This document shows, in pieces, positions 9,408-36,454 of a stretch of DNA of 64,000 nucleotides. Numbering within the stretch: position 1 is the first letter of the stretch; each line of letters begins with the position of its first letter. A program made the position numbers and the translations under genes. The stretch is from NCBI RefSeq assembly GCF_000295095.1, contig NZ_JH806633.1, forward strand, positions 471,424-535,423. Direction: 5' to 3'. The stretch is from Actinomyces timonensis DSM 23838. Its GTDB lineage: Bacteria > Actinomycetota > Actinomycetes > Actinomycetales > Actinomycetaceae. The notes beneath the pieces are model-generated. The model was not told where the DNA came from, searched no databases, and was given only the letters and a program-made list of their open reading frames with translations.

Positions 9408-10379
9408 TCAGCGGGGGCCTGAGCCGGAGGTGCTGGCACGGGCGGTGAGGAGGCGGGCGACGCCGTCGTCCGGCAGTGGGGGAGTCTCGCCGCCGAAGAG
9501 GGGGCAGTGGGTCTGGAAGGCGCACCAGTTGCACAGGGGCCCGCGCTTGGGGGCGAAGTCGCCGGCGTTGGCGCAGTCCTCGATCTCGTCCCAGATGCGA
9601 GCCAGGCGCGTCTCGGTGGCTTGGAGCTCGGGCAGGCGGGGGTCATGGGTGAGGGTGCGGCCGTCCTTGAGGTAGAGGAGTTGGAGGCGGGCGGGGGCCT
9701 GGCCGCGCAGGCGCCATAGGACGAGCCCGTAGAAGCGCATCTGGAACAGCGCCTCCTCCTGGAACCTGGGGGAGGGGGACTTGCCGGTCTTGTAGTCGAC
9801 AACGCGCATGGCGCCGTCGGGGGCGATGTCGAGGCGGTCGACGAAGCCGCGGATGAGCAGGCCGTCGGCGACCTCGGTCTCCACGAAGAGCTCGCGCTCG
9901 GCGGGGGCGAGGCGCTGCGGGTTCTCCATGTGGAAGTAGGAGGAGATGAGGTCGCGAGACTCGCCGAGCCAGGTGTCGATCTGCGCGGGCTCCTCGAACA
10001 GGCCCATGACCTCGGGGCTCTTGGCGCGGTGCGCCTCCCACTGCTCGGGCAGCATGGCGATGGCGGCGTCCGGCGTGCGCTCGCGCGCTGGTAGGTCGTA
10101 GAGGCGCTCGAGGATCGCGTGGACGAGCGTGCCCTTGTGGGTGGCGAGCGAGCCGGGCTCGGTGAGGCCGTCCACGGTGCGCAGGCGGAAGAGCAGCGGG
10201 CACTGGAGGAAGTCCTTCGCGCGCGACGGCGAGAGCGCCGCCCGGCGCGGCCCCTTGCGCGCGGGCCGCCTGGAGCCCGGCCCCGTGGCCCGGGAGCGGG
10301 CGGTGGCCGGGGTGGCGGGCGCCGCAGGGGAGGGCGCGGGGGAAGGAGGCGCTGCGGAGGCTGTGCCGTCTGCTGTCAT
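9408..10379 (-). CDS. RecB-like PD-(D/E)XK nuclease with Fe-S cluster motif
   Basis: A 323-residue protein of the RecB/AddB/Cas4-like nuclease group. After a Pro/Ala-rich N-terminus, 'LSPSRAKDFLQCPLLFRLR' carries the first Cys. 'KGTLVHAILERL' provides the conserved His, and 'VDRLDIAPDG...VVDYKTGK' the metal-binding Asp and the DxK core. The C-terminal 'CNWCAFQTHCPLFGG' supplies three further Cys, the pattern for a 4Fe-4S cluster that staples the domain. The start at 10379 is chosen from a TACGGT -10 box 6 nt upstream; the frame is open further but not conserved-looking. It likely acts in DNA end processing or repair. Confidence 0.87.
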   Translation of the reverse strand: MTADGTASAAPPSPAPSPAAPATPATARSRATGPGSRRPARKGPRRAALSPSRAKDFLQCPLLFRLRTVDGLTEPGSLATHKGTLVHAILERLYDLPARERTPDAAIAMLPEQWEAHRAKSPEVMGLFEEPAQIDTWLGESRDLISSYFHMENPQRLAPAERELFVETEVADGLLIRGFVDRLDIAPDGAMRVVDYKTGKSPSPRFQEEALFQMRFYGLVLWRLRGQAPARLQLLYLKDGRTLTHDPRLPELQATETRLARIWDEIEDCANAGDFAPKRGPLCNWCAFQTHCPLFGGETPPLPDDGVARLLTARASTSGSGPR

Positions 10380-10385
10380 GGTGGC

Positions 10386-10391
10386 ACCGTA
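10386..10391 (-). promoter_or_regulatory. -10 element for a leaderless transcript
   Basis: TACGGT on the minus strand, 6 nt before the ATG at 10379 of the RecB-like nuclease gene. Confidence 0.5.
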
Positions 10392-10605
10392 CCCCGGGCC
10401 ACTGACACGAATCCGGGCGGGCTTGGCGGGGCTGCGGGTGCGTGGGTGACAGTGCGGGCTGGAAACTCGCGCCGCGATGGCCTCGATTCCATCACAAAGA
10501 CTGGGATCGCTGATATGAAATTGCCGCGTGCGGGCGGTCTCATGCAAGATTATGCTGCACATGGTTTTCGCTGAAGACCGAATGCTTAGATTGTTGAGGA
10601 GAATC

Positions 10606-10980
10606 ATGGAAACTGCTTCCATCACCGCCTGGACCTTCCAGGCTGAAGTTCCCATCCCCCCGGAGGTCGGTCAGCTCCTCGTCGAAGGAGAGCGACCCTG
10701 GGCTGCCTACAGGACATTTCGTGATACCGCGATCTTCACGTCGAAGCGCCTGATTGTCAAGGATTCGCAAGGGATAACGGGCAGGAAAATCGAGATGTAT
10801 TCCCTTCCTTACTCGGCGATCAATATGTGGTCCTCAGAGAACGCTGGTACGTTGGATTTCAATGCTGAGATCGAGATGTGGACCCGTGCTGGCCACATCA
10901 AGATCAAACTCGGCAAGGGAGTCGATGTCAGGAAGCTTGACCAGCTGATCGGACACGCCGTCCTCAACAGCGGTCACTGA
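10606..10980 (+). CDS. Bacterial PH-domain protein
   Basis: A 124-residue single-domain protein. 'ERPWAAYRTFRDTAIFTSKRLIVKD' followed by 'EMYSLPYSAINMWSSENAG' and a C-terminal helix ('VRKLDQLIGHAVL') is the pattern of bacterial pleckstrin-homology domains (bPH). The ATG at 10606 has a GAGGAGA Shine-Dalgarno about 5 nt upstream. Codons are noticeably more A/T-rich than in flanking genes, suggesting acquisition by transfer. Cytoplasmic; role unknown. Confidence 0.78.
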   Translation: METASITAWTFQAEVPIPPEVGQLLVEGERPWAAYRTFRDTAIFTSKRLIVKDSQGITGRKIEMYSLPYSAINMWSSENAGTLDFNAEIEMWTRAGHIKIKLGKGVDVRKLDQLIGHAVLNSGH

Positions 10981-27628: not shown

Positions 27629-29059
27629 ATGCGTAGAGCCAAGATTGTCTGCACCCTCGGTCCCGCCACAGATTCCCCCGAGCAGGTACAGGCGCTCGTG
27701 GACGCGGGCATGAACGTCGCCCGCATCAACCGCTCCCACGGCAGCGCCGAGGACCACGAGAAGGTCATCGCGCGCGTGCGCGAGGCGGCGGAGGCCTCGG
27801 GCCGCTCCATCGCCATCCTCGTGGACCTCCAGGGCCCCAAGATCCGCCTCGGCCGCTTCGTGGGCGACCAGAAGGTCATGCTCAACAAGGGCGATGAGTT
27901 CACCATCACCACCGATGACGTCCTGGGCACTGTCAAGCGCTCCTCGACGACGTTCAAGGGCCTGCCGGGTGACTGCCGCCCCGGCGACCGCCTCCTCATC
28001 GACGACGGCAACGTGGCCGTGCGCGTCACCGCCGTCACGGACACGGATGTGGTCACGAAGGTCGAGGTCCCCGGGTACGTCTCCAACAACAAGGGCATCA
28101 ACCTGCCGGGCGTGGCCGTCTCTGTGCCGGCGCTGAGCGAGAAGGACCGCGAGGACCTGCGGTGGGCCCTCAAGGTTGGCGCCGACGTCATCGCGCTGTC
28201 CTTCGTGCGCGACGCGAATGACGTCAAGGACGTCCACGAGATCATGGACGAGGTCGGCACGCGCATCCCCGTCATCGCGAAGATCGAGAAGCCGCAGGCG
28301 GTCGAGCACCTCCTGGAGATCGTGGACGCTTTCGACGGCATCATGGTGGCCCGCGGCGACCTCGGCGTGGAGATGCCCCTGGAGGCGGTGCCGCTGGTGC
28401 AGAAGCGCGCGATCGAGTTGGCCCGCCGCAACGCCAAGCCCGTCATCGTGGCAACCCAGGTGCTGGAGTCGATGATCCAGAACCCGCGTCCGACGCGCGC
28501 GGAGGCCTCGGACTGCGCCAACGCGATTCTCGACGGCGCCGACGCGGTCATGCTGTCGGGGGAGACCTCGGTGGGCGCGTACCCGATCGAGGCCGTGCGC
28601 ACGATGGCCAACATCATTGAGAACGTCGAGGAGAACGGCGGGGAGCGCATCGCGCCCCTGGGCTCCTTCCCGCAGACGCGCGGTGGGGCGCTCACCCGCG
28701 CCGCCGCGGAGATGGGCGAGCAGCTCGCCGCCGACTACCTCGTCACCTTCACCCAGTCCGGTGACACGGCCCGCCGCCTGTCCCGCCTGCGCTCGCCCAT
28801 CCCGCTGCTGGCCTTCACGCCGCTGTCGACGACGCGCAACCAGCTCTCGGTGTCCTGGGGCGTGCAGACCTTCGAGGTTCCCGAGGTCCAGCACACCGAT
28901 GAGATGGTGACCCAGGTGGACAAGACCCTCCAGGAGAAGCACCTCGCGCAGGTCGGCGACGTCGTCGTCATCGTCGCGGGCATGCCCCCGGGAACCCCGG
29001 GCTCCACGAACTCCATCCGCGTCCACACCGTGGGCGAGACGGCCGACTACCTCGGCTGA
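27629..29059 (+). CDS. pyk: Pyruvate kinase
   Basis: 476 residues, the standard bacterial length. 'MRRAKIVCTLGPAT' starts the barrel, 'DLQGPKIRLG' covers the substrate loop, the active-site signature is 'VIAKIEKPQAVEHL' with Lys as acid/base, and 'MVARGDLGVEMPLE' binds the metal. It transfers phosphate from PEP to ADP, the last step of glycolysis. It appears leaderless from its own promoter and is followed by a strong terminator. Confidence 0.97.
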   Translation: MRRAKIVCTLGPATDSPEQVQALVDAGMNVARINRSHGSAEDHEKVIARVREAAEASGRSIAILVDLQGPKIRLGRFVGDQKVMLNKGDEFTITTDDVLGTVKRSSTTFKGLPGDCRPGDRLLIDDGNVAVRVTAVTDTDVVTKVEVPGYVSNNKGINLPGVAVSVPALSEKDREDLRWALKVGADVIALSFVRDANDVKDVHEIMDEVGTRIPVIAKIEKPQAVEHLLEIVDAFDGIMVARGDLGVEMPLEAVPLVQKRAIELARRNAKPVIVATQVLESMIQNPRPTRAEASDCANAILDGADAVMLSGETSVGAYPIEAVRTMANIIENVEENGGERIAPLGSFPQTRGGALTRAAAEMGEQLAADYLVTFTQSGDTARRLSRLRSPIPLLAFTPLSTTRNQLSVSWGVQTFEVPEVQHTDEMVTQVDKTLQEKHLAQVGDVVVIVAGMPPGTPGSTNSIRVHTVGETADYLG

Positions 29060-29092
29060 GGGAGAACCCGCGCCTCGGCAAGGAGACGGACG

Positions 29093-29135
29093 ACGGCGCG
29101 ACCCCAGGATTCGCTGGGGCCGCGCCGTTCTCGTA
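29093..29135 (+). terminator. Terminator after pyk
   Basis: A 15-bp stem (29093-29107 with 29114-29128, one mismatch) with a 6-nt GATTCG loop is followed by TTCTCGT. Confidence 0.65.
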
Positions 29136-29495
29136 TGCGCCACGGCCTGGAGCTCGCGTCCAAAGCACCTGCAAGTTGTCCAGAGCAACCCTGGGAGGTC
29201 CTGGGCAGCGCTGGGCCGTCCTGAGCATCGCGGGGAGCGCTGCTTTCAACGCACCAGAGGCGCCCGAACCCAACCTCCGCTTCGTGGTGCGGGGCGGTGA
29301 CGCCTGCGGACTCGTCGTCGAGAGCATCCCCAGACCGTTGAAAGCATCCCCAAGCCGTCTTGAGCACCCTGCTATGGGATGCGACGGTCTGGGGATGCTC
29401 CAATCGGTCTCCAGGTGCTTTCGACGCAGTCTCCACGAGCGTCACCGCGCAACTGCGCAGGACTGGACCCGTTGCGGACGTACCTGGGGTTTGCG
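29136..29495. other. Non-coding region between pyk and the insertion sequence
   Basis: About 360 bp with no credible gene. It is full of short degenerate repeats such as 'GGGGATGCT' and 'GGTGCTTTCGACG', and has a perfect 17-bp inverted repeat (29322-29338 and 29384-29400, GAGCATCCCCAGACCGT). It may be decayed remains of the DNA deleted next to the insertion sequence. Confidence 0.5.
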
Positions 29496-30986
29496 GGCTC
29501 TTCCGGTTTGGGGGTGTGGTCAGGTGCTCAGTCGGTGCCTGAGGCCTCCGGTGTGGATGAGGGATCGGGTGATGTAGTGGGTGGGGTTGCGCAATCCTTG
29601 GGCGATGCCTCGTAGGTGCTCGAGCCTGCCGCCCGTGGCTTCGGTGGGGGCGTTGGATGAGCCGGGGTGGTCGAAGCAGGCCAGGGGTGTCCTCGCTCCT
29701 GCGCTTCAGGGTCCTCCCCAGGCGGGCGATCTCCTGGATCCCGGCTGGCACCCCAGAGGAGATGGATCTGATCAGGGCGCTCATGAGGCCTCGGCCGTGG
29801 GCCTTGTCGGGGTGCTGGTAGGCGTCGATCATCTTCTGGTAGACCGCCCAGGTCACCTCCACAGCAGTGTTCCTCTCGTCGGCGAACAGCGCCTCCAGGC
29901 GCCCGGCCTGCTTCTCGGTGAGCAGGCCCTCCCTGGTCAGCAGGGCTCGGCGCGCCGCGTACAGGGCGTCGCTGGCTCTCCCGCGCCGCCCTGTGGTGGC
30001 CTGCTGGACTCTGCGGCGGGTCTCATCGAGGGCGTCGGCGGCCAGGCGCACCACGTGGAAGGGGTCCATGACTGCCCTGGCGTCTGGTAGTTGCTCGGTT
30101 GTGGTGGTCTTGTTAGCCGGTGAAGCCGTTCATCGCCACGATCTCGATCTGCTGGCGCCAGGCGGGGGGCCGGTCGGCCAGCCAGCAGGCCAGGGCCTTC
30201 TTGGATCGGCCGGGAATCATGTCGACCAGGCGTGCCGGCCCGGCGCCGTCGCGCGCGGGGGTCAGGTCGATGATGACCGTCACGCACCGCTGGCGACCCC
30301 GGTGGCGCCACACATGCTCGTCTATCCCGATCACGCGAGCCCCCGTCGGGCGGTCCTCCAGGGGCCTCAGGGCCTTTATGCCGGCTTTCAGGACGGCGTC
30401 GTTGGCGGCGTCCCACCCCACGCCCAGGCGCGCCGCGACCCGCGAGACGGCCATATTGTCGACCGCGACCGCCTCCAGCGCCCAGGCGGCGGCCGAGCGC
30501 GTCAGGATGCTCCGGGGCTCGGCCGCGGCGCTGATGTCGACCCTCCAGGTCCGGCGGCCGAGCTGGCAGGCGATCCTGGGGACCCTCACCAGCAGGCGCG
30601 TGACCCTGCCCGCGGTGGGGGCGTGGGCCAGTAAGCGCGCCACCGTGCCGGCCCGCCGCCCCATCGCCGCGCACGAGGCGCAGAACAGCCGCTCGTCAAC
30701 AGGGGCGATGACGGGGCGGGCCTCGACGACCAGCTCGCCGCCATCGGCGAGGCGCTGGCCCGTGGCGCGCAGGCCCAGGGGCCCCAGGCCCAGCACGGCG
30801 TCGGGATCGATCGGCTCGAAGCGCTCCCCGGCCAGGGCGCGCGGTAGGCTTCAACATGGCGTCGGGGTCCTCCGGCAGGCGATGGATAGTTCAGCGACAC
30901 CCATCATGCCCACCAAGGGCCCCGACGCCCCGCCGTCTACCCCCGCGCGCCCACCACCCCGCCTACACCCACAAACCGGAAGAGCC
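29496..30986 (-). mobile_element. ISL3-type insertion sequence
   Basis: A 1491-bp element bounded by terminal inverted repeats that match at 22 of 24 positions. Both ends start GGCTCTTCCGGTTTG when read inwards, typical of the ISL3 family. It contains one degraded transposase gene on the minus strand. The flanks (GGTTTGCG on the left, ATCAATCC on the right) do not match, so no 8-bp target duplication remains. The right end lies inside a NACHT-type gene. Confidence 0.9.
29520..30857 (-). pseudogene. ISL3-family transposase, frameshifted
   Basis: Pieced together, the frames give a complete ISL3 transposase of about 440 residues. An N-terminal zinc-ribbon-like region (partly degraded, 'CASCAAMG') and helix-turn-helix ('AVSRVAARLGVGWDAANDAV') lead to the DDE core ('VIGIDEHVWRHRG', 'AMNGFTG', 'VMDPFHVVRLA'). 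The C-terminal part ends '...TGGLRHRLST'. A one-base insertion at about 30113 turns GGC TAC into GGC TAA C, and an extra C near 29690 shifts the frame again. A further shift appears likely near 30830 at the N-terminus. The element is not autonomously active unless helped in trans. Confidence 0.88.
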
Positions 30987-32045: not shown

Positions 32046-32115
32046 CGCTCGACCTTCCCCGCCGGGCAGGGCCGCAAACAGCCGCCGGGCGCGCATCGTT
32101 GGGCTGATGAGGGAG

Positions 32116-32189
32116 TACCTCCGGTGGGACTCGAACCCACAACACTCCGATTTTGAGTCGGATGCCTCTGCCAGTTGGGCTACGGAGGC
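32116..32189 (-). tRNA. tRNA with CAA anticodon but a short variable arm
   Basis: 74 nt folding as a complete cloverleaf on the minus strand: a 7-bp acceptor with a first G-U pair, anticodon stem TCCGA/TCGGA around loop CTCAAAA (anticodon CAA, Leu codon UUG), and T-arm GTGGG-TTCGAGT-CCCAC. The variable region is only 5 nt (GTGTT), as in class I tRNAs, whereas bacterial tRNA-Leu is class II with a long variable arm. No CCA is encoded. Its amino acid identity is therefore uncertain. Confidence 0.82.
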
Positions 32190-32274
32190 GCGGGCGGCGC
32201 GCGGCCGCCACACGGTGATGCGACGCAGTGTTCGTGTCTGGCCGCGTTTGGCCCACTACGTACGGCGATCATAC

Positions 32275-32280
32275 TAGACT
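32275..32280 (+). promoter_or_regulatory. -10 element for a leaderless transcript
   Basis: TAGACT, 7 nt before the GTG at 32288; it selects that GTG as the start of the response regulator. Confidence 0.65.
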
Positions 32281-32287
32281 CGCCCCC

Positions 32288-32956
32288 GTGAGTACCGAGT
32301 CCAGCACTAGCGCCCGTCGGGTTCTCGTCGCCGAGGACGAGACCCTCATCCGACTCGACATCGTCGAGACCCTCACCGAGGCCGGCTACGAGGTCGTCGC
32401 CGAGGCCGCTGACGGCGAGGAAGCCGTCCGCCTCGCAGGCGAGCATGAGCCCGACCTCTGCGTCATGGACGTCAAGATGCCCGTCATGGACGGCATCACC
32501 GCCGCCGAGCAGATCATCGAGAAGCACGGCTGCGCCGTCGTCATGCTCACCGCCTTCTCCCAGGCCGAGCTCGTCGAGCGCGCCAGCGCCGCCGGCGCCA
32601 TGGCCTACGTCGTCAAGCCCTTCACCCCGGCCGACCTCCTCCCCGCCCTCGAGATCGCCTTCTCCCGCCACGAGGAGATCGCCTCCCTCGAGTCCGAGAT
32701 CGCCGACCTCAACGAGCGCTTCGAGACCCGCAAGCGGGTCGACCGCGCCAAGGGCCTCCTCATGGAGCGCATGGGCCTGTCCGAGCCCGAGGCCTTCCGC
32801 TGGATGCAGAAGACCTCCATGAACCGCCGCCTGACCATGCGCGAGGTCGCCGACGCCGTCATCGAGCAGGTCGGCTCAACGGCCAAGAGCGGCGGGAAGA
32901 CGGCCAAGGCCCCCAAGGCGGGCAAGAGCGCCAAGAGCGAGGACGCCGACGCCTGA
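32288..32956 (+). CDS. pdtaR: ANTAR-domain response regulator (PdtaR-like)
   Basis: 222 residues. The N-terminal receiver domain ('RVLVAEDETLIRLDIVETL') has the acidic pair and the phosphorylated Asp in 'LCVMDVKMPVMDG', the Thr of 'MLTAFSQ' and the Lys of 'VVKPF'. The C-terminal ANTAR domain ('ETRKRVDRAKGLLMERMGLS', 'EAFRWMQKTSMN') binds paired RNA hairpins to cause antitermination. Its partner kinase is not in the window. The gene order tRNA-pdtaR-polA is conserved in actinobacteria. A Lys-rich tail extends the end. Leaderless promoter. Confidence 0.92.
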   Translation: MSTESSTSARRVLVAEDETLIRLDIVETLTEAGYEVVAEAADGEEAVRLAGEHEPDLCVMDVKMPVMDGITAAEQIIEKHGCAVVMLTAFSQAELVERASAAGAMAYVVKPFTPADLLPALEIAFSRHEEIASLESEIADLNERFETRKRVDRAKGLLMERMGLSEPEAFRWMQKTSMNRRLTMREVADAVIEQVGSTAKSGGKTAKAPKAGKSAKSEDADA

Positions 32957-33667: not shown

Positions 33668-36454
33668 GTGAGCACCTCCACGACCAGACCCGCGCCGTCA
33701 TCCACGGACGGAGCCCCTCGCCGCCTGCTCCTCATCGACGGCCACTCCATGGCCTTCAGGGCCTACTACGCCCTGCCCGTGGAGAACTTCACGACCTCCA
33801 CCGGCCAGGCCACCAACGCCGTCCACGGCTTCGCCTCCATGCTGCTCTCCCTCATCGAGCAGGAGGCCCCCACGCATGTGGCCGTGGCCTTCGACCTCGC
33901 GGGCGGCACCTTCCGCACCGAGGAGTACTCCGAGTACAAGGGCACCCGCGACGCCACGCCCGAGCCCTTCATCGGCCAGGTCGAGCTCATCCAAGAGGTC
34001 CTCGACGCGATGGGCATCCGCTGGCTCACCAAGGACCGCTACGAGGCCGACGACATCCTCGCCACACTGGCCGCCACCGGCCAGGGGGCGGGCATGGAGG
34101 TCCTCCTGTGCTCCGGCGACCGCGACTCCTTCCAGACCGTCACCGAGCGCTGCACCGTGCTCTACCCCATCAAGGGCGTGTCCACCCTGCGCCGGATGAC
34201 GCCGGCCGAGGTCGAGGAGCGCTACGGCGTCACCCCCGAGCGCTACCCGCACCTGGCCGCCCTCGTCGGCGAGACGAGCGACAACCTGCCCGGCGTGCCC
34301 GGGGTCGGCCCCAAGACCGCCGCCAAGTGGATCGCCCAGTACGACGGCCTCGACGGCATCGTCGCCAGCGCCGACCAGATCAAGGGAAAGGCCGGCCAGT
34401 CCCTGCGTGACCACCTCGACGACGTCCTGCGCAACCGCCGTCTCAACCGGCTCCTCACCGACCTCGACCTCGGCATCGACCCCGCCCGGGACCTGGAGTA
34501 CCTGGGCGCCCACCGCGCCGCCCTCACCCGCGTCATGGAGGCCCTGGAGTTCCGCACGATCCTCCAGCGCGCCCAGCGCGTCCTGCCCTTCGCCGACACC
34601 TCCGACCACGGCCCACAGGGCTCGGCCGCCCCCGAGGGCCCCGCCGCCGCCCTGGAGGCCCTCGCGCCCGCGGTCCTCGGCCACTGCATCGAGCCCGGCC
34701 GCCTCGCCGAGGCGATCCAGGAGCTCGCCGACGGCGCCCTCGGCCTCCACATCATCGGGGACCTGCGCCCGGGCCTCGGCGACCCGCGACTCGTCGCCCT
34801 GTCCGACGGCGAGCGGGCCGTCGTCGCCGACCCCTCCCTCCTGCTGCCGGGCGACGAGCGGGCCCTCGGCGCCCTCCTGGCCGATCCCGCGCGCCGCCTC
34901 GTCGTCGCCGACGCCAAGGGCTCCTCCCACGCCCTGGCCGCCCGGGGCTTCGAGCTGCGGGGCGTCGCCGCCGACCCCTCCCTGGCCGGCTACCTGTGCC
35001 GCCCCGAGCAGCGCAGCTACGACGTCGACAGCCTCGTCCAGCGCTGGCTCGGCATCGACCTGGCCGGCATGGAGGACGATGCCAGCGCCGACGGCGGCCA
35101 GCAGGGCTTCGACCTCGACGCCCTCGCCGCGGATGCGGTTCCCACCGAGGCCCTGCGCGCCGCGCGCCGCGCCGCCGCGCTCCTGCCCCTCCAGGACGCC
35201 CTCGACGCCCAGATGGAGCAGCGCGGGGCCTCCGCCCTCTTCACCGGCCTCGAGATGCCCGTCTCGGAGTGCCTGGGCAGGATGGAGGCCCTGGGCATCG
35301 CCGTCGACGACGACGTCCTGGCCGCCCGCGAGGCCGAGCTCGACGGGCGGGTCAACCACGCCCAGGCCGCCGCCTTCGAGGCCGCCGGCCACGAGCTCAA
35401 CCTCTCCAGCCCCAAGCAGCTCCAGACCGTCCTCTTCGACGAGCTCGGCATGCCCAAGACCCGCAAGACCAAGACCGGGTACACCACGGACGCGGGCGCT
35501 CTGGCCGAGCTCTACGCCAAGACCGGGCACCCCTTCCTCGCCCAGCTCCTGGAGCACCGCGACGCCATCAAACTGCGCCAGACCGTCGAGGGACTGCGCA
35601 AGGCCATCCAGCCCGACGGCCGCATCCGCACCACCTTCCAGCAGACCATCGCCGCCACCGGCCGCCTGTCCTCCATCGACCCCAACCTGCAGAACATCCC
35701 CGCCCGTACCGAGGAGGGGCGCCGCATCCGCGAGGCCTTCACCGTCGGCGAGGGCTACGAGTGCCTCATGACGGCCGACTACTCCCAGATCGAGATGCGC
35801 ATCATGGCGCACCTGTCCGGGGACGAGGCCCTCATCGAGGCCTTCCGCTCCGGGGAGGACCTGCACCGCTACGTGGCCGCCCTCGTCCACCGCATCGACG
35901 TCGACGACGTCACCCCCGAGCAGCGCGGCCACGTCAAGGCCATGAGCTACGGCCTGGCCTACGGGCTGTCCACCTACGGCCTGGCCAAGCAGCTCGGCAT
36001 CGAGAACGCCGAGGCCATGGCCCTGCGCGACGCCTACTTCGCCCGCTTCGGTCGCGTCCACGACTACCTCGAGGCCGTCGTCGACCAGGCGCGCCGCGAC
36101 GGCTACACCCAGACGATGCTCGGGCGCCGCCGCTACCTGCCGGACCTGGGCAGCGACAACCGCCAGCGCCGCGAGATGGCCGAGCGCGCCGCCCTCAACG
36201 CCCCCATCCAGGGCTCGGCCGCCGACATTGTCAAGCGCGCCATGGTGGACGTCGCCGAGGCGCTCACCGCCCAGGGCCTGGCCAGCCGCATCCTCCTGCA
36301 GATCCACGACGAGCTCCTCCTGGAGATCGCGCCGGGGGAGGGCGACGCCGTCGAGGCCCTCGTCAGGGAGCGCATGGGCCGGGCCGTCTCACTGTCCGTG
36401 CCCCTTGACGTCTCCGTGGGGCGCGGCAGCACCTGGCGCGACGCCGCTCACTGA
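33668..36454 (+). CDS. polA: DNA polymerase I
   Basis: 928 residues, GTG start. Residues 1 to about 310 are the 5'-3' exonuclease ('LLLIDGHSMAFRAYYAL', 'YEADDILATLA', helix-hairpin-helix 'GVPGVGPKTAAKWI'). The middle domain lacks the DxE/ExxxD residues of the 3'-5' exonuclease, as usual in actinobacteria. The polymerase domain has motif A 'DYSQIEMRIMAH' near 703, 'RRYLPDLGSDNRQRRE' in the fingers, and motif C 'QIHDELLLE' near 878. It fills gaps and removes primers. Leaderless promoter. Confidence 0.97.
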   Translation: MSTSTTRPAPSSTDGAPRRLLLIDGHSMAFRAYYALPVENFTTSTGQATNAVHGFASMLLSLIEQEAPTHVAVAFDLAGGTFRTEEYSEYKGTRDATPEPFIGQVELIQEVLDAMGIRWLTKDRYEADDILATLAATGQGAGMEVLLCSGDRDSFQTVTERCTVLYPIKGVSTLRRMTPAEVEERYGVTPERYPHLAALVGETSDNLPGVPGVGPKTAAKWIAQYDGLDGIVASADQIKGKAGQSLRDHLDDVLRNRRLNRLLTDLDLGIDPARDLEYLGAHRAALTRVMEALEFRTILQRAQRVLPFADTSDHGPQGSAAPEGPAAALEALAPAVLGHCIEPGRLAEAIQELADGALGLHIIGDLRPGLGDPRLVALSDGERAVVADPSLLLPGDERALGALLADPARRLVVADAKGSSHALAARGFELRGVAADPSLAGYLCRPEQRSYDVDSLVQRWLGIDLAGMEDDASADGGQQGFDLDALAADAVPTEALRAARRAAALLPLQDALDAQMEQRGASALFTGLEMPVSECLGRMEALGIAVDDDVLAAREAELDGRVNHAQAAAFEAAGHELNLSSPKQLQTVLFDELGMPKTRKTKTGYTTDAGALAELYAKTGHPFLAQLLEHRDAIKLRQTVEGLRKAIQPDGRIRTTFQQTIAATGRLSSIDPNLQNIPARTEEGRRIREAFTVGEGYECLMTADYSQIEMRIMAHLSGDEALIEAFRSGEDLHRYVAALVHRIDVDDVTPEQRGHVKAMSYGLAYGLSTYGLAKQLGIENAEAMALRDAYFARFGRVHDYLEAVVDQARRDGYTQTMLGRRRYLPDLGSDNRQRREMAERAALNAPIQGSAADIVKRAMVDVAEALTAQGLASRILLQIHDELLLEIAPGEGDAVEALVRERMGRAVSLSVPLDVSVGRGSTWRDAAH

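Follow-up and report, generated by a model that had tools for sequence, protein, structure and literature searches.

Can a tRNA that carries a leucine anticodon on a class I body be a working tRNA-Leu? The question is raised by a short gene in the 64,000-nucleotide stretch of the Actinomyces timonensis DSM 23838 genome that was analysed here (the window). According to the excerpts of a 2023 review available to us, tRNA-Leu has a long variable arm in all organisms and organelles except animal mitochondria (PMC9976931). The initial annotation of this locus held that the leucyl-tRNA synthetase (LeuRS) needs that arm, and proposed that another synthetase charges the tRNA or that it has a role outside decoding. 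The evidence below indicates that the gene very probably encodes an ordinary UUG-reading tRNA-Leu without the class II arm.

A class I tRNA-Leu(CAA) gene and its neighbourhood

The gene and its neighbours in the window are as follows.

32116..32189, minus strand: class I tRNA-Leu(CAA) gene, 74 nt, without encoded CCA (ARAGORN and Rfam)
32288..32956, plus strand: pdtaR-like response regulator gene with ANTAR domain, divergent from the tRNA (open reading frame; Pfam Response_reg and ANTAR)
33668..36454, plus strand: polA, DNA polymerase I (open reading frame and Pfam)
27629..29059, plus strand: pyruvate kinase gene, on the opposite side of the tRNA from pdtaR (open reading frame and Pfam)

ARAGORN called a tRNA-Leu(CAA) at 32115-32189 on the minus strand, and the Rfam tRNA model RF00005 matched 32116-32189 of the same strand with 59.2 bits (cut-off 29, E 4.1e-11). 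Both confirm the class I tRNA of the initial annotation, with its CAA anticodon, 5-nt variable region and G-U first pair, and place it on the minus strand. The variable region is GUGUU, the anticodon loop is CUCAAAA, and all seven acceptor pairs form, beginning with G1-U72. This pair was dropped as a clue, being common: it is also found in the genome's own tRNA-Leu(UAG), tRNA-Ile(UAU), two tRNA-Lys, two tRNA-Glu and one tRNA-Met, and in 103 of 312 distinct class I tRNA-Leu. Energy folding gave -29.5 kcal/mol (z -2.68), with the acceptor, anticodon and T arms as expected and the D arm paired otherwise (10-12 with 18-20); it is the covariance model and the covariation, not the energy fold, that support the cloverleaf D stem 10-12/23-25. 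With 5 nt, the variable region is not the long arm of class II, and the location on a bacterial chromosome contig (G000:C2) separates the gene from the class I tRNA-Leu of animal mitochondria. Neither the helix decay nor the loss in relatives expected of a pseudogene was found. A plus-strand match to the Rfam Plastid-ycf2 5'UTR model scored 40.9 bits, below its gathering score of 65.7, and was taken as antisense resemblance to a tRNA.

The start of pdtaR at GTG 32288 is our choice inside the open reading frame 32228-32956. Locus comparison places pdtaR next to the CAA gene in other genomes too. A TAGTATG-like stretch lies upstream of most copies of the CAA gene in the genus and may belong to the divergent pdtaR. 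Open reading frames and Pfam matches reveal an ISL3-type transposase in two pieces (29047-30796, minus strand) in the interval that separates the tRNA from the pyruvate kinase gene.

The leucine identity core

The genome (2.93 Mb, 4 contigs) has 52 RF00005 matches, all inside stretches run through ARAGORN. Its leucine tRNAs are class II CAG, GAG, UAA and UAG, together with the class I CAA. The initial annotation had advised looking for a normal class II tRNA-Leu(CAA) elsewhere in the genome; neither this nor any second CAA tRNA is among the 52 matches. By established decoding rules, UUG could also be read through wobble by the class II tRNA-Leu(UAA), so that UUG reading here may not depend on the CAA gene alone. 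One gene of the genome passed the LeuRS cut-off. Among solved structures its best match is 1h3n, followed by the 9tjv/3zgz group, which we take to be the Thermus and E. coli LeuRS enzymes, respectively; with editing and anticodon-binding domains (Pfam), its product looks, from its sequence, like a normal bacterial LeuRS.

The E. coli tRNA-Leu determinants named in the review excerpts are A73, A15-U48, G18G19 and A20a; A14 with U8 is a further determinant given there (PMC9976931). The class I tRNA-Leu(CAA) has A73, A14 with U8, and A15-U48, and its D loop contains G18G19 and A20a, the numbering of position 20a being our own. Its D arm is GCCCAACTGGCAGAGGC, compared with GCGGAATTGGTAGACGC in class II tRNA-Leu. 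Bacterial class II tRNA-Leu (the own UAA, CAG, GAG and UAG tRNAs and those of E. coli) are alike in A73, A14, A15-U48, G18G19 and A20a, as well as in the 17-nt D arm with a 3-bp stem and an open 13x22, whereas the variable region of the own class II tRNA-Leu measures 13-19 nt against 5 in the class I CAA. Among the 312 distinct class I tRNA-Leu, A15-U48 is present in 307, A73 in 305 and U8-A14 in 301.

A core test, drawn up with the sequence already in view, asked for A14, A15, U48 and A73 together with an open 13x22 and a D arm no shorter than 16 nt. It selected 5 of the 46 distinct own tRNAs, namely the four class II tRNA-Leu and the class I CAA; the core is common only to the tRNA-Leu of this genome. 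When the open 13x22 and the D-arm length were left out, tRNA-Ala(UGC), two tRNA-Arg and one tRNA-Lys also passed. A stricter pattern was run on 1180 distinct tRNAs of fetched loci, one of which was not parsed. It matched 344 of 393 leucine tRNAs (267 of 296 class I, with 29 missed, and 77 of 97 class II) and none of 786 others; since many of the leucine tRNAs had been fetched by this D arm, only the 0/786 speaks for specificity.

A reverse case lies outside the window. The own tRNA-Ile(UAU), 91 nt (G000:C2:840874-840964, minus strand; L065:219-309), combines a class I core (G15, C48, paired 13:22) with a variable region of 23 nt, a mirror image of the short tRNA-Leu. No more than two distinct tRNAs with a CAU anticodon were called in this genome.

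Conservation, covariation and one locus in two structural classes

Of 36 further genomes in the genus, 35 have the CAA gene at 91-100% identity; the exception, G002, reaches 84% at best. All 35 copies were read, and each has the CAA anticodon and the class I form, which contradicts a sequencing error removing the arm, an outcome the first description had named as refuting. In a class I covariance model built from 24 relatives and searched over 39 sources, the window's tRNA-Leu(CAA) scored 99.6 bits; the next own tRNAs were the class II tRNA-Leu(UAA) (68.6), tRNA-Asn (64.1) and tRNA-Lys (63.8). The 20 helix pairs are standard, pair by pair, in 288 to 312 of the 312 distinct class I tRNA-Leu, and two-sided changes occur at 19 of them (for instance 10-25: G-C 264, U-A 17, C-G 17). 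These counts ignore kinship, and placing the arms by best pairing tilts them towards paired states. Positions 13x22 are unpaired in 311 of 312.

To score linkage to pdtaR, the PdtaR protein of the window was run by tBLASTn against the fetched loci, and any match with E up to 1e-15 was taken as pdtaR on the strength of the match. Loci shorter than 1400 bases were dropped and some genes were counted twice (the gene of L004 is that of L096). On this basis, 56 of 62 class I CAA genes and all 7 class II CAA genes have pdtaR within the fetched locus, and the other 6 class I genes do not. The conserved actinobacterial position beside pdtaR claimed at the outset, and the view that the gene is not junk, are borne out. 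The same tBLASTn search of fetched loci found pdtaR near none of 153 class I and none of 3 class II UAA genes. The 0/153 for class I UAA genes overturned our supposition that a single locus hosts the UAA form in some genomes and the CAA form in others. Since pdtaR stands beside both class I and class II CAA genes, these are by position the same gene in two structural forms, and class I and class II have been exchanged at one locus. In G037, a class II tRNA-Leu(CAA) beside pdtaR (L144:1501-1584) has a D arm near the class I kind (GCCGAATTGGCATAGGC) and is possibly an intermediate between the forms.

Class I tRNAs as readers of UUR codons

To compare decoding sets, we combined a class II model, the class I model and ARAGORN and gathered the leucine tRNAs of 19 actinobacterial genomes (18 plus the own). 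These sets rest on model thresholds except in the own genome, G157, G338 and G043, and leave out seven class I-sized matches of the class II model. The UAA and CAA tRNAs are both class I in 9 of the 19 (G338, G043, G219, G157, G214, G114, G191, G239, G165). UAA is class I and CAA class II in five (G037, G055, G046, G183, G264), the converse holds in three (own, G085, G075), and both are class II in one (G069). G231 has a class II CAA, and no UAA was found there by the model searches or ARAGORN. Overall, 14 of the 19 genomes yielded a UAA tRNA of class I and none of class II.

For three genomes the tRNAs themselves were read: all 39 matches in G157 and all 8 class II-sized matches each in G338 and G043. 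The class II tRNAs of these genomes are Leu with CUN anticodons only, Ser and Tyr, and the only UUR readers found are class I tRNAs. In G157, rpoB was aligned with four other genomes, with reading frames chosen by shared words. Opposite its 11 UUA codons stand 41 leucines among 44 aligned residues, and opposite its 22 UUG codons 75 among 88; for its CUN codons, Leu makes up 62-93% of aligned residues. Judged from this alignment, UUR still means leucine in G157.

Two further observations concern G165. A dense tRNA array at about G165:C1 4297881-4299227 (L324, L380) contains a class I tRNA-Leu(CAG) and a class I tRNA-Leu(GAG), alongside the class II CUN set of that genome. A class I tRNA of the same genome called Leu(UAA) (L377) has the loop CCUAAAA, in which position 33 is C, not U.

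Spread in bacteria and viral contigs

At a threshold of E 1e-13, the class I model matched 220 of the 296 genomes sampled from the class. Near-threshold matches were read in part, and the count lacks class I tRNAs scoring below threshold, such as the class I CAA of G075 (E 7.2e-12). All 29 class loci fetched besides the own are class I (25 UAA, 4 CAA). A phylum sample gave matches in 46 of 198 genomes, 36 of them outside the class; of 26 loci read, 25 were called Leu and one Phe(AAA) though its loop is CUUAAAA.

The D arm combined with a UUR anticodon occurs in at least 119 stretches of named contigs, within which 116 tRNAs of 74-77 nt were called. Genera among the matches listed are Mycobacterium, Nocardia, Rhodococcus, Gordonia, Corynebacterium and Arthrobacter; labels of metagenome-assembled genomes there are Planctomycetota, Rokuibacteriota, Deltaproteobacteria, Myxococcales, Acidobacteria and Alphaproteobacteria, and these labels may hide binning errors or phages.

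Viral contigs were searched with the D-arm pattern alone, blind to the anticodon, and the results refer to the matches listed (at least 120 stretches). The pattern occurs at least 124 times. ARAGORN called a tRNA at 109 of the occurrences listed, and all 109 are Leu (UAA 67, CAA 19, UAG 14, GAG 6, CAG 2, AAG 1) and short, the longest being 79 nt; of the other tRNAs in the same listed stretches, 73 of 715 are Leu. Among the matches listed, this D arm goes with leucine regardless of the anticodon, as would be expected if LeuRS reads the core. The 15 listed occurrences without an ARAGORN call at the pattern were judged by eye: four resemble tRNA-Leu interrupted in the anticodon loop (L408, L443, L460, L481), three resemble Leu tRNAs cut off or miscalled (L464, L469, L501), six are unrecognisable as tRNA (L401, L403, L422, L440, L444, L454) and two are ambiguous (L402, L503).

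Directly behind the break in the anticodon loop, the Rfam group I intron model matches in L408 and L460; L443 gave no match above the cut-off. The viral contig L402 has about 30 tRNA matches and a tmRNA match, with three of the tRNA matches, of 113-118 nt, at 10274-10768.

Proposed recognition and alternative explanations

We propose that the gene encodes a UUG-reading tRNA-Leu in class I form, charged by the genome's one LeuRS via A73 and the core, a reading to which we give a probability of about 0.9. LeuRS would read A73 and an elbow core made up of U8:A14, A15-U48, G18G19, A20a, the 3-bp D stem and the open 13x22; because it reads these, the long arm would be dispensable for charging. Once charged with leucine, the tRNA would read UUG through its CAA anticodon. 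As far as sequence can tell, charging by the one LeuRS should take place, and we infer that the tRNA is expressed and used by the ribosome.

Charging by another synthetase, for example LysRS, PheRS or MetRS, with UUG read wholly or partly as another residue, would fit the G1-U72, the A73 and much of the variable region, which the tRNA has in common with the own tRNA-Lys, and the rank of tRNA-Asn and tRNA-Lys as next best non-leucine tRNAs in the class I model. We consider it very unlikely, since the best other own score in that model belongs to the class II tRNA-Leu(UAA), the core is in no own non-leucine tRNA, the viral D arm goes only with Leu anticodons (109/109 called, among the matches listed) and UUR aligns with Leu in rpoB of G157. 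Slightly less probable still is a tRNA-like RNA acting outside decoding, as a regulator or aminoacyl donor. Coverage of UUG by the class II tRNA-Leu(UAA) would leave room for such a role in this genome, and the gene is oriented divergently to pdtaR, which encodes an RNA-binding regulator; yet in G157, G338 and G043 no UUR readers other than class I tRNAs were found, and these must therefore decode there at least, and in other genomes a class II tRNA-Leu(CAA) occupies the same locus. For a pseudogene, or an arm removed by sequencing error, we found no supporting point, and the class I form of 35/35 congeneric copies, together with the preserved helices and two-sided changes at 19 of 20 pairs in 312 distinct class I tRNA-Leu, makes it scarcely credible.

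The presence in this tRNA of the elements in the review excerpts (PMC9976931), with the class I-only UUR readers of three genomes, speaks against the initial premise that LeuRS needs a long arm. Given the leucine core, the locus exchange, the class I UUR sets and the leucine-specific D arm, neither an unusual synthetase nor a non-decoding role, as invoked by the initial annotation, is needed. The ordinary LeuRS-charged tRNA-Leu remains our reading.

A more far-reaching version, which we regard as speculative and rather improbable, would make the short form a second, selectively favoured tRNA-Leu class that passes between phages and bacteria and takes over the loci of class II UUR tRNAs, with the bacterial LeuRS serving both classes. 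The advantage might be evasion of enzymes, such as tRNA-cutting toxins and phage defence, for which class II tRNA-Leu is a target or a signal, or alternatively the short form might make a separately regulated UUR pool.

Relation to known tRNA-Leu and implications

In the open-licence PMC literature, which was the scope of the search (subscription papers, supplements and tRNA databases lie outside it), the excerpts seen mentioned a short bacterial tRNA-Leu once, in passing: a mycobacterial tRNA cluster includes a tRNA-Leu(TAG) whose variable loop is short (PMC6582537); excerpts of PMC8450103, PMC5370408, PMC9569102, PMC6297222 and PMC7373986 contained none. Given that scope, an earlier notice is possible. 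In the excerpts of PMC6582537, the mycobacterial tRNA is likewise an actinobacterial tRNA with a short variable region and a Leu anticodon, but it is one gene of an extra cluster, whereas the tRNAs described here are chromosomal UUR tRNAs of many genomes. Animal mitochondrial tRNA-Leu also lacks the long arm and, according to the review excerpts, is specified by A73 and A14 (PMC9976931); in contrast, the present tRNAs occur in bacteria and phages, form a complete cloverleaf and stand beside class II tRNA-Leu under the same LeuRS. The closest likeness by position is the class II CAA gene, which has the same place at the pdtaR locus. Another known gene that joins a CAA anticodon to a short arm scores as tRNA-Met and is possibly silent, unlike the window's gene with its leucine core and conservation.

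Short tRNA-Leu is common in actinobacteria and phages; some genomes yielded no other UUR reader. Among viral contigs, the combination of this short D arm and a Leu anticodon turns up frequently (at least 109 called). A rule equating a short arm with a non-working tRNA-Leu would misjudge such genes. A single locus at which the gene occurs in both classes provides a natural experiment on LeuRS recognition without the arm.
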